Source: Mycolicibacterium mengxianglii | GTDB lineage: Bacteria; Actinomycetota; Actinomycetes; Mycobacteriales; Mycobacteriaceae | Direction of reading: 5' to 3' | DNA: 64,000 nt | NCBI RefSeq assembly: GCF_015710575.1 | Contig: NZ_CP065373.1 | Location: 806,001-870,000, forward strand | Shown: in pieces, positions 1 through 23,756 of the stretch | How the letters are laid out: the number at the start of each line of letters is the position of its first letter | Position numbering within the stretch: the first letter of the stretch is position 1 | Program-made: the position numbers and the translations under genes | Notes under the pieces: model-generated | Seen by the model: the letters and a program-made list of their open reading frames with translations, nothing else | What the model was told of the DNA's origin: nothing | The model's database searches: none

Positions 1-1326
1 GACCAGCTCGGCGGCGCGCTCCGTGTCGAGCAGTGGCCCCAGCACGATGCGCAGGAAGCGATCCACCGCGGCGGGATCGACCTCGGAGAGAAGATGATCG
101 AGGGCGGCATCACGTGCCAACCCCACGAAATCCGACTCCGAGGCCAACTGCGCGGCGGTGGCCGCAGACGACATGGCCTGCGCCAGAGCCGGCAGTTCCC
201 GGGTGGGCTCGGCCACCCCGATCCGCAGGGCCCGCGGCAGTGGCGACGAGTAGAGCTGGGCGACCAGCTCGTCGGCGATGGAACCGGCGTCTCGGCGGCC
301 GTCGAAACGCACGATCGAGCGGTGCCGGCCATCCCGGATCTCCGACAGCACCGGGCGGTCGTCACGGTGCAATATCGCCGAGAGCTCGGCGACCTGGAGC
401 GGACCGTCGACGCTGAGGGCCACCACACCGACATACCAGCCGCCCGGGGTGAACCCGAGCTCCCGGGTGGCCCGCCGCAGCGCAGCTTCGGTGTCGGCCC
501 GCAGCGCTGCGGGCGTACTGGTGTTTTCGGCGAGGGCCATGAGCCGAAAGACCTCACGCAGGTGCTGGTCCGATCGGGTCAGCGGTCGCCACCGCAGCAG
601 TGCCAGTGCCAGTGATTCAGGTGCGCGGCGGCACACCGCACTGACCATCTGTAGGTCCACGCCCGCGCGCGGCAGCACCTCCAGGGTTGCGATGGTCACC
701 CCGGCCGACTCGATGGTCGCGACGTGGGCGTAGGTGCGCGGCCGGGCGCCGTCGACTTCGGCCGCGGCCAGCACTGCGCCGGAAGCCGAGCGCACCGAGA
801 TCGAGCAACCGCTGAGATCGCTCAGCGCCGAGACCATGTCGTCGAGATCGCCCTGTGCCGCCAGCACGCCGGCGAGCAGGTGGGTGACCTCGTCGTTGAA
901 ATGCAGGGCGCGTACCGACTCATTGACCAGACGGCTGTTGATGGCGCGGGTGACCTCGACGAACCGCACGACTTCGGTCAGCTCGATCAGGGGAAACCCG
1001 CGGATACTCGCCTGCTGCACCAGCGCCGCCGGGATCCTGCCGACGCGGGGCCGCTCGACGGCGAGGCCCGCAGCACCGGCCGCGGCCAGTGAGTCGATGT
1101 AATCATGCAGCTGCTCGGTGGTGGAGTCGCCCAGGATCACCCCGGCGACCAGCAGCAGTTCGCCCCCGCTGAGCAGTTCGCCGATGTCGAGCACTTCGCT
1201 GGTGTGCACCCAGCGGATCTCGGTGTCCAATCGGTCCCACCCGGCCAACACCTGTGGCCTGGCCGCGAATAGGGCCGGGTCGTCGAGAACGTCGCGCAGT
1301 GTCATCGACGACGGGGACGGCTGCAC
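1..1326 (-). CDS. PucR family transcriptional regulator (C-terminus beyond left edge)
   Basis: The minus strand is open without a stop from a GTG at 1326 to the window edge (442 codons visible). GTG 1326 is preceded by GAGGAG four bases upstream, so I prefer it over the in-frame ATG at 1305. The N-terminal ~125 residues look like the PucR purine-catabolism regulatory domain (segment with VLDIGELLSGGE and LLLVAGVILGD). A GGDEF-like middle domain follows. The C-terminal PucR-type helix-turn-helix would lie outside the window. It diverges from an NCS1 permease and an amidohydrolase, so it probably controls uptake and breakdown of a purine-like or cyclic-amide compound; the ligand is unknown. Confidence 0.85.
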   Translation of the reverse strand, partial: MQPSPSSMTLRDVLDDPALFAARPQVLAGWDRLDTEIRWVHTSEVLDIGELLSGGELLLVAGVILGDSTTEQLHDYIDSLAAAGAAGLAVERPRVGRIPAALVQQASIRGFPLIELTEVVRFVEVTRAINSRLVNESVRALHFNDEVTHLLAGVLAAQGDLDDMVSALSDLSGCSISVRSASGAVLAAAEVDGARPRTYAHVATIESAGVTIATLEVLPRAGVDLQMVSAVCRRAPESLALALLRWRPLTRSDQHLREVFRLMALAENTSTPAALRADTEAALRRATRELGFTPGGWYVGVVALSVDGPLQVAELSAILHRDDRPVLSEIRDGRHRSIVRFDGRRDAGSIADELVAQLYSSPLPRALRIGVAEPTRELPALAQAMSSAATAAQLASESDFVGLARDAALDHLLSEVDPAAVDRFLRIVLGPLLDTERAAELV

Positions 1327-22225: not shown

Positions 22226-22693
22226 TCATCCGCACTCGTCGTTTGCCGCGCCGTTGACAGCCAGCACCACCGCGGCCTGCTGGGCCGGCGTCAATTGCGC
22301 CCACGGTGTGTCGAACGTGCCGGGCCCGACCACGCCGGGGGTCTGCAGTTCCTTGAGGTATGCCTCCGCCAGCGCGGGTGGATCGCCGGGCTTGTCCGTC
22401 ATCCAGAGCTTCGCGGCCCGGCAGGCCTGGCCGTACTGCGATTCTGTGGCATCGGCGGGCACATCGACCTTGGTGGTGACACCGCCGGGGGAGACCCCCA
22501 CCGAACCCGGGGGCGTCGGCTCCTCGGGCAGCGGGGGCGGCTCCGAGAAGGCGGTGCTCGAGGGGGATGCGGGGGCTGAAGTATCGGCGGCCTGGTCGCC
22601 ACTGTCGGTCGAAGAGCAGCCGGTGACGGCCACCAGAATCGTTGCGGCGGCCACGGCGCTGCGTCGCACCGGGCGGTTGAGGTACCTGCGCAT
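22226..22693 (-). CDS. lpqV: LpqV-like lipoprotein
   Basis: 155 residues from ATG 22693. A short basic N-terminus and hydrophobic core lead to the lipobox AVTGC, so the mature N-terminal Cys is lipidated and the protein anchored outside the cytoplasmic membrane. A Pro/Ser/Glu-rich linker follows (FSEPPPLPEEPTPP). The C-terminal part, with VGVSPGGVTTKVD, YGQACRAAKLWM and LTPAQQAAVV, resembles M. tuberculosis LpqV (Rv1064c), which has the same neighbours. Function unknown. Confidence 0.83.
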   Translation of the reverse strand: MRRYLNRPVRRSAVAAATILVAVTGCSSTDSGDQAADTSAPASPSSTAFSEPPPLPEEPTPPGSVGVSPGGVTTKVDVPADATESQYGQACRAAKLWMTDKPGDPPALAEAYLKELQTPGVVGPGTFDTPWAQLTPAQQAAVVLAVNGAANDECG

Positions 22694-22725
22694 GAACCCC
22701 AATCTATGCAACACTGGCCGGCGTG

Positions 22726-22767
22726 ATGAAGCGCATCGGTTTTCAGGAGTGTTGTCCGGCTCGTTGA
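22726..22767 (+). CDS. Cys-Cys upstream ORF (putative cysteine-responsive leader peptide)
   Basis: ATG 22726 opens a 13-codon frame encoding MKRIGFQECCPAR and ending at TGA 22765-22767; an in-frame GTG lies directly before the ATG. It sits 45 bp upstream of the cysteine-dioxygenase-like gene. Short upstream ORFs with adjacent Cys codons are a described mycobacterial device in which ribosome stalling at low cysteinyl-tRNA changes expression of downstream sulfur genes. The downstream gene is predicted to consume cysteine or a related thiol, which makes the match functionally sensible. Too short for routine gene callers. Confidence 0.65.
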   Translation: MKRIGFQECCPAR

Positions 22768-22812
22768 GCCGCCCCACGCCCCTGCCCGTTTCATCCTCTG
22801 GAGTCCTCCGCT

Positions 22813-23370
22813 ATGACTGCCGTCGCGCCTTCTTTCCTGCCTGCAACCGACGTCCCCTCCGTCTCCGGACCGACCCGGCTGCGCCTGCCTGACCTGTTGC
22901 ACGCCACCGACCGCACCGCCAACGACGTCCTCGAGGGGCGCTACGACCATCTGCTCCCGCCGGGGGGCGTGCCCACCGACCGGCGCTGGTTCACCCGCGT
23001 GCATGGTGACGACGAACTCGACGTCTGGCTGATCAGTTGGGTGCCCGGACACGCCACCGAGTTGCACGACCATGGTGGTTCGCTCGGCGCGCTCACGCTG
23101 CTCACCGGTGCCCTCGACGAATTCCGTTGGGACAGAGATCAATTGCGTCGCCGTCGTATTGAGGCCGGCGATCAGGCCGCATTCCCGCTCGGCTGGGTGC
23201 ACGACGTGGTGTGGGCCCCCTCGTTCACCGTCGACTCCGCCCCGGAACCCACACTGTCGGTGCACGCGTACTCACCTCCGCTGACGGCGATGTCCTACTA
23301 CGAGGTGACCGAGCGCAGCACACTACGTCGCCAGCGCACCGAACTCACCGACAAGCCGGAATCCGAATGA
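22813..23370 (+). CDS. Cysteine dioxygenase-family cupin protein
   Basis: 185 residues. The cupin metal site is seen in ATELHDHGGS (His85, His87) followed by the conserved FPLGWVHDVVW with the third His. These are the features of bacterial cysteine dioxygenases, iron enzymes that oxidise a thiol to sulfinate with O2. Its stop overlaps the rhodanese start by 4 bp. GGAG lies 12 bases upstream of ATG 22813 and is followed by CTCC, so a small hairpin could mask it. Position corresponds to Rv1065. Exact thiol substrate unproven. Confidence 0.82.
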   Translation: MTAVAPSFLPATDVPSVSGPTRLRLPDLLHATDRTANDVLEGRYDHLLPPGGVPTDRRWFTRVHGDDELDVWLISWVPGHATELHDHGGSLGALTLLTGALDEFRWDRDQLRRRRIEAGDQAAFPLGWVHDVVWAPSFTVDSAPEPTLSVHAYSPPLTAMSYYEVTERSTLRRQRTELTDKPESE

Positions 23371-23756
23371 GCCGCATCGACACCCTGCTCGACGCCGCCC
23401 GCGCCCGGCTACAGCGGATGCCGGCAGCCGAAGTTCCCGCCGCGTTGCACCGGGGCGCACTGCTGGTCGACATCCGGCCGGCCGCCCAGCGCGCGCAGGA
23501 GGGCGAGGTGGGCGAGCTCCCCGGAGAGACCCTGGTCATCGAACGCAACGTGCTCGAGTGGCGGTGCGACCCCACCAGCGATGCCCGGCTGCCGCAGGCC
23601 ACCGGCGATGACGTCGAATGGGTGATCCTGTGCTCGGAGGGCTACACCTCCAGCTTGGCCGCGGCGGCGTTGCAGGATCTCGGCCTGCACCGGGCCACCG
23701 ACGTGATCGGCGGCTACCACGCGCTGGTGGCGGCCGGCGTGCTCGAACCCGCCTGA
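23367..23756 (+). CDS. Rhodanese-like sulfurtransferase domain protein
   Basis: 129 residues, a single rhodanese domain: LLVDIRPAAQRAQEGEV, then the active loop with Cys89 (ILCSEGYTSS), then GYHALVAAG. The active loop lacks the usual Arg of thiosulfate sulfurtransferases, so the donor may differ. Coupled to the cysteine-dioxygenase-like gene by ATGA at 23367-23370; the pair looks like a small thiol-oxidation/sulfur-transfer operon under the Cys-Cys leader. Confidence 0.85.
   Translation: MSRIDTLLDAARARLQRMPAAEVPAALHRGALLVDIRPAAQRAQEGEVGELPGETLVIERNVLEWRCDPTSDARLPQATGDDVEWVILCSEGYTSSLAAAALQDLGLHRATDVIGGYHALVAAGVLEPA

Follow-up and report, generated by a model that had tools for sequence, protein, structure and literature searches.

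The window, a stretch of 64,000 nucleotides that corresponds to positions 806001-870000 of the 5.96 Mb single-contig genome of Mycolicibacterium mengxianglii, contains a gene for a thiol dioxygenase that is followed by a gene for a rhodanese-like protein and preceded by a very short upstream open reading frame (uORF) with two adjacent cysteine codons. The protein-coding genes at this locus are:

22226..22693, minus strand: divergent lpqV-family lipoprotein gene (LpqV PF17301, E 4.5e-43, Pfam), a neighbour outside the switch discussed here
22813..23370, plus strand: thiol dioxygenase of the cysteine-dioxygenase type, 185 aa (CDO_I PF05995, E 4.7e-13, Pfam)
23367..23756, plus strand: rhodanese-like protein (Rhodanese PF00581, E 3.6e-05, Pfam)

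An earlier note on this DNA had predicted a thiol dioxygenase coupled to a rhodanese, and both Pfam matches bear this out, as does the ATGA overlap at 23367 that the two genes share. The dioxygenase residues His85, His87 and His130 as well as Ser149, His151 and Tyr153 were invariant among 11 aligned sequences, and we take them to be the catalytic positions (three-His iron site and Ser-His-Tyr triad) of a PF05995-type dioxygenase. The nearest sequence relatives in the PDB were solved cysteine dioxygenases (best E 5.8e-10), and no model for the protein was found in NCBIfam. Among named loci, those closest to the window's dioxygenase were mycobacterial. Judged by its encoded proteins, the operon looks thiol-oxidising and not cysteine-making. 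In all 121 mycobacterial loci with enough sequence, the dioxygenase gene was followed by an ORF of 100 aa or more; 119 of these loci had a CxxG loop of the rhodanese type and 66 the -1 overlap. The order lpqV, dioxygenase, rhodanese presumably corresponds to Rv1064c-Rv1065-Rv1066; the one paper found for Rv1065, the presumed gene number, concerned antigen presentation. The dioxygenase was undetected at E 1e-40 in 23 of 297 genomes of the genus, and 18 of the 20 dioxygenase-less genomes listed were at most 4.6 Mb in size, some of them being incomplete.

Between the divergent lpqV gene and the dioxygenase start, the following elements of the leader were recognized:

22710..22715, plus strand: -10-like hexamer AACACT, predicted promoter of a leaderless transcript, from its spacing in relatives
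22723..22767, plus strand: leader uORF of 14 codons, VMKRIGFQECCPAR-stop, with GTG 22723 as the likeliest start and ATG 22726 in frame, from translation and relatives
22750..22755, plus strand: presumed sensor codons TGT TGT (Cys-Cys), from codon conservation
22800..22803, plus strand: Shine-Dalgarno (SD) sequence GGAG of the dioxygenase; an SD with 4-5 matching bases occurs in 96 of 109 distinct rows

The ATG frame at 22726-22767 (translation MKRIGFQECCPAR-stop) and the 45 nt between its stop and the dioxygenase ATG at 22813, both described in the earlier note, were confirmed. Since GTG 22723 immediately adjoins ATG 22726 on its 5' side and lies 7 nt downstream of the AACACT box, a box-N7-RTG spacing that recurs in relatives, this GTG is most likely the start and the transcript is predicted to be leaderless. 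Of 109 distinct mycobacterial rows, 72 had AACACT, a figure that is somewhat circular because the score by which starts were chosen favours this spacing; the RTG taken as start was GTG in 76 of these 109 rows and ATG in the other 33. A sigma-70 consensus scan of 22500-23000 found no promoter. The uORF stop and the dioxygenase start were separated by 36-55 nt in 105 of the 109 distinct mycobacterial rows, and GAGTGTTGTCNG was present once in the entire 5.96 Mb genome. The leader locus is presumably linked to a name of the form Ms5280A, for which a literature search found nothing. The neighbouring lpqV is likewise predicted to be leaderless (minus strand, TAGATT-N7-ATG, window 22691-22706) and its box lies 3 bp from that of the uORF, so that the two promoters should be mutually exclusive. 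A strict divergent leaderless lpqV promoter (TANNNT-N7-RTG) was rejected as a general trait, as only 20 of 108 relatives fit.

The presence of a Cys-Cys short ORF is by itself weak evidence and not significant, since one was found within 160 nt upstream of 2 of the 44 window genes, the dioxygenase gene and one other. Following a comparison proposed in the earlier note, according to which a lack of conservation of the Cys pair would have refuted its reading, homologous loci were inspected for the pair. It was kept ahead of the dioxygenase in 128 of 131 mycobacterial loci, the window included, and, among the other genera of this GTDB family (the sister genera), in 44 of 63 loci. The mycobacterial loci, defined by a dioxygenase identity of at least 60%, comprised 23 with the window among them, the best 80 named ones and 28 more, the top scorers among 274 matching genomes; some genomes were counted twice. 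The sister-genus loci comprised 23 from one search plus 40 out of 59 additional places in its listing. Three mycobacterial loci were without the pair, one at a contig edge (L023) and two with an identical leader sequence (L045 and L135). In the latter, represented by M. shimoidei (L045), promoter and uORF were kept and Cys-Arg replaced Cys-Cys (VMERTGFWECRRA-stop), while the spacer of 92 nt was about twice the usual length, making this a natural single-Cys variant. A stricter script retained 126 of the 131 loci, 109 of them distinct, with L055 and L064 additionally dropped; L055 is a mycobacterial-type locus (dioxygenase identity 80%) on a contig filed as an Acidobacteria MAG and probably represents contamination.

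As a rule the uORF ended in (E)CC(R)x-stop, with Glu before the Cys pair in 110 of 126 mycobacterial leaders and ECCRG-stop in 39 of the 44 sister-genus leaders. At the pair, TGT accounted for 213 of the 218 mycobacterial codons and for 85 of the 88 from the sister genera, compared with 35 of 155 Cys codons in the 44 window genes, counts that are not independent events because the loci are related. TGT is nonetheless clearly retained at the pair. The N-terminus was highly variable across relatives; codons 3-9 had a synonymous share of 0.35 versus 0.25 expected (58 distinct uORFs, compared in pairs that are not independent), which suggests some peptide-level constraint on this part. Taken across the family, we regard this conservation as decisive in marking the leader as more than a chance ORF, a judgement drawn from sequence comparison.

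Folding and co-variation pointed to a hairpin with two stems:

22725..22733, plus strand: 5' arm of the lower stem, GATGAAGCG, pairing with 22787-22795
22757..22762, plus strand: 5' arm of the upper stem, CGGCTC, one base 3' of the Cys codons, from a co-varying stem
22763-22765, plus strand: loop of the upper stem, GTT, with the stop codon 22765-22767 at the loop
22766..22771, plus strand: 3' arm of the upper stem, GAGCCG, from folding and co-variation
22787..22795, plus strand: 3' arm of the lower stem, CGTTTCATC, ending 4 nt before the SD, from folding

The window's leader RNA had a minimum free energy of -32.8 kcal/mol (z -3.08), with 1 of 200 shuffles as good. The upper stem begins directly or a few bases 3' of the Cys codons and encloses the uORF stop codon. 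Across 87 distinct rows with 40 distinct 5' arms, leaders with the stop at most one codon after the Cys pair being omitted, its native score was 13.32 compared with a permuted mean of 11.24 and a top of 12.42 among 1000 permutations, and 37 of the 40 arms paired better with their own partner. Taken alone, the stretch 3' of the Cys codons did not fold with a lower energy than its shuffles (mean z -0.08); position and co-variation were the sole features of this stem that stood out.

When 105 rows aligned with MAFFT were given to RNAalifold, no structure resulted (energy 0.0), probably because spacer lengths vary, and pairwise co-variation was therefore assessed by permutation, with rows clustered at 75% identity and phylogeny unmodelled. 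This analysis and the opening energies described below drew on the rows with a placeable SD and start, 120 out of 126 for Mycobacterium and 41 out of 44 for the sister genera, which were then clustered. In Mycobacterium (48 clusters, 88 window pairs) uORF and spacer co-varied along an anti-diagonal with z to -5.8, its ends lying at start+0..+14 with SD-12..+2 (z -4.2) and start+28..42 with SD-36..-22 (z -4.5). Sister genera (20 clusters, 88 window pairs) gave z to -5.0 along a shifted diagonal, on which the pairing joins uORF start+4..18 to SD+4..+18, in the region of the start codon. This pattern suggests that the leader forms one long hairpin with the uORF as its 5' arm and the stop at its loop, which extends over the dioxygenase ribosome binding site (RBS) in the sister genera and ends just before the SD in Mycobacterium. 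Lower stem pairing was kept despite sequence change, as in GATGAAGCG/CGTTTCATC (L001, the first of three examples), ATGAAGCG/CGCTTCAT (L112) and TGAAGTG/CACTTCA (L125). A different switch, the pairing of GGAG with CTCC before the main start, had been proposed in the earlier note; both motifs are present (22800-22803 and 22806-22809), but SD-spacer pairing of at least 4 bp was found at 23 of 110 loci versus 27% of shuffles, which leaves this proposal unsupported. The only Rfam match within 22400-23400 was a sub-threshold one to mir-448 (E 0.27).

The cost of opening the region from SD to start was calculated with a modelled ribosome at different positions on the uORF. For the sister genera it fell from 12.8 to 7.4 kcal/mol with the ribosome at the Cys codons and was 9.3 with the ribosome at the stop; it was lower with the Cys-codon ribosome in 19 of 20 clusters, and the gain of 5.38 exceeded that of shuffled uORFs (0.90; highest of 15 set means 1.60). 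In Mycobacterium (48 clusters) the core RBS, from SD to start, cost 6.3-6.7 kcal/mol in every modelled state, and its gain with the Cys codons occupied was 0.09 compared with 0.58 for shuffles, under all 15 set means, while the wide 30S footprint gained 3.91 versus 2.68 (highest of 15 set means 3.04). The gains of the window's own leader were unremarkable for both the core (0.0 versus 1.2 in shuffles) and the wide footprint (2.2 versus 2.7). When this genome's cysA2-type and nirA-type leaders were put through the same calculation as a control, no gain was observed. Since these control leaders have the appearance of the published kind, the calculation neither validly excludes such opening in Mycobacterium nor counts as a validated test of it, and the positive model result rests on the sister genera. 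The mean unpaired probability of the SD was dropped as a measure of accessibility in favour of opening energies; in Mycobacterium it was uninformative, at 0.234 free and 0.193 stalled, with the stalled value higher in 43% of 95 sequences, and in the sister genera it was 0.27 free and 0.12 stalled, against expectation, with only 6 of 44 showing the higher value when stalled.

Attenuation by leaderless short ORFs with poly-cysteine runs was reportedly described for M. smegmatis by Canestrari et al. in 2020 (doi 10.1111/mmi.14498). Excerpts of further papers state that leaderless short ORFs with Cys codons attenuate in a cysteine-dependent manner in M. smegmatis (PMC9031893, PMC9094748, PMC13236596), that M. 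tuberculosis has six such Cys ORFs (PMC9094748), and that cysA2, Rv0485 and nirA are each preceded by a conserved Cys-rich leaderless uORF (Shell et al. 2015, PMC4633059). RNA pairing between the uORF and the downstream landing region also belongs to the published kind (PMC13236596). The dioxygenase leader shares with the poly-Cys attenuators a predicted leaderless ORF, consecutive Cys codons near its end, a sulfur-metabolism operon and predicted pairing between uORF and landing region, and its architecture is the same as that of the cysA2, Rv0485 and nirA uORFs as far as these are depicted in the excerpt of PMC4633059. It differs in having usually two Cys codons (mostly TGT-TGT) within 14 codons instead of a poly-Cys run, in a hairpin that stops just before the SD in Mycobacterium, and in an operon that looks thiol-oxidising where theirs are cysteine-making. 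Two leaders ahead of cysA2-type and nirA-type loci were found in this same genome (L242 and L251; VSARTELVLTKRRAVDLCRVAGCCCCCCSC-stop and VIAARHPQPRVVLVARRHVDFKRVCSCCCLP-stop), the identities being inferred from Pfam matches (two-domain rhodanese and NIR_SIR, respectively). They possess an RR-containing stretch before a run of 3-6 Cys, both of which the dioxygenase leader is without, and the cysA2-type leader follows the arrangement TAAGGT-N7-GTG. The ilvB1 transcription attenuator of M. tuberculosis, with a 166-nt leader and a Rho-independent terminator in the excerpt of PMC13236596, resembles the dioxygenase leader in placing codons of the sensed amino acid in a uORF ahead of a metabolic operon; unlike ilvB1, the stretch 22500-23000 around the dioxygenase leader held 0 terminator-like sites (hairpin and T-run). 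Our literature search, which covered material other than the full text of Canestrari et al. 2020, did not find the dioxygenase leader described; as the kind is known and six ORFs are stated for M. tuberculosis, it may already be on that list. The kind of switch is already known in mycobacteria, and the less expected part is a dioxygenase/rhodanese operon under such control.

The leader is real and conserved, and it most likely belongs, in minimal form, to the known kind of mycobacterial cysteine attenuator. On balance we consider it probable that it acts as a cysteine sensor read by ribosomes, with the operon raised at low cysteine through hairpin opening. Transcription would begin at GTG 22723 and 70S ribosomes would enter the leaderless RNA. 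With sufficient Cys-tRNA they would pass the uORF fast and exit at its stop, the hairpin would refold and dioxygenase translation would be low. When Cys-tRNA is short, ribosomes would pause at the Cys codons and occupy the uORF arm, the hairpin would stay open, and the landing site of the dioxygenase/rhodanese message would be freed. The operon would be up at low cysteine, perhaps releasing sulfur as sulfite from other thiols. The sister genera, whose binding site is opened by the ribosome in the model, are the reason for favouring induction at low cysteine. Weighing against this explanation, the modelled core RBS of Mycobacterium stays as costly to open with the Cys codons occupied, the induction of a cysteine-destroying enzyme by cysteine shortage would be physiologically odd, and the 19 of 63 sister-genus loci without the Cys pair also count against it. 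These 19 are a mixed group, some with single- or split-Cys leaders (for example VIHHPTSRRCRS-stop and VDYVRIAGGFCGCRACR-stop) and several in which no leader was seen.

The same leader could work with the opposite sign, ribosomes finishing the uORF when cysteine is plentiful and re-initiating at, or keeping open, the dioxygenase start, so that a stall would mean off. This would fit the catabolic role presumed for a CDO-type enzyme (Pfam), and the nearly constant cost of the mycobacterial core RBS, for which the model needs no stall for exposure, as well as the stop-to-start distance of 36-55 nt in most rows point the same way. It is nevertheless doubtful, as the sister-genus model suggests that the RBS is buried when the uORF is untranslated and freed by a stall, which corresponds to the usual sign, and a gap of 36-55 nt, mostly followed by a good SD of its own, is unlike the RTGA coupling in the excerpt of PMC4633059. 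The leader might also have been rewired between neighbouring genera: the RBS would be buried in the sister genera, while Mycobacterium would have released it, with the hairpin shifted upstream, the switch there operating by re-initiation or transcription and its sign perhaps reversed, with thiol oxidation on at plentiful Cys-tRNA. We offer this tentatively and as a possibility with a small chance of being right.

Control at the level of transcription, with the C-rich and G-poor spacer as a Rho entry site and uORF ribosomes setting the exposure of the RNA, we regard as unlikely. The mycobacterial spacer contains 51.7% C and 18.5% G versus 33.9% and 26.3% upstream of window genes, and premature termination in M. 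tuberculosis is, going by the title of D'Halluin 2023, said to be shaped by Rho and translated uORFs, which we counted in favour of Rho. C-richness is equally demanded by the 3' arm of the hairpin, though, the spacer is short at about 45 nt, and no intrinsic terminator-like site was found around the leader. That the uORF product serves as a functional micropeptide acting in trans, for instance via its Cys pair, would agree with the excess of synonymous changes in codons 3-9; the highly variable N-terminus speaks against it, codon choice and RNA pairing are constrained too, and we find this reading very improbable. Least credible of all is an untranslated ORF arising by chance within a conserved promoter or spacer: short Cys-Cys ORFs do occur near 2 of 44 window genes, the dioxygenase included, but here Cys pair, frame, stop and start spacing are preserved across the family while the surrounding bases vary.

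If the sensor reading is true, cysteine-sensing ribosomes would govern an operon of thiol-oxidising appearance in addition to the cysteine-making ones, in Mycobacterium and many sister genera, and the sign of control would tell whether the dioxygenase removes excess cysteine or recovers the sulfur of other thiols. As the sensor would be very small, with two codons, it would permit a simple test of the minimum codon number and of the preference for TGT over TGC. The contrast between genera with a buried and a free RBS would provide a natural comparison of two wirings of one leader.

Other types of leader were also observed ahead of the dioxygenase gene. Five sister-genus loci (L170, L171, L199, L211 and L225) carried a leader of the form VD(L/Y)V(H/R)(V/I)AGG(S/F)CGC... 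with up to six consecutive Cys that is cysA2-type-like, and three loci (L204, L224 and L226) a single-Cys leader of the type V(I/L)HHPTSRRCR(S/G)-stop. In other families of the order, the leader ahead of the dioxygenase gene was often of another and longer type that carries FWxxRRxxxFD[EQ]xC close to its C-terminus. This motif was seen by eye in 14 of 33 distinct outgroup loci, which were the best-scoring outgroup loci only:

L024, L025, L027, L139-L142, L144, L149, L151, L152, L162, L164, L166: FWxxRRxxxFD[EQ]xC leader, e.g. MTARELLAPFWAGRRADSFDETCC-stop

Four outgroup leader peptides matched no NCBIfam model. With constrained residues in front of its Cys, this leader resembles a signal for nascent-chain stalling more closely than a plain codon counter.
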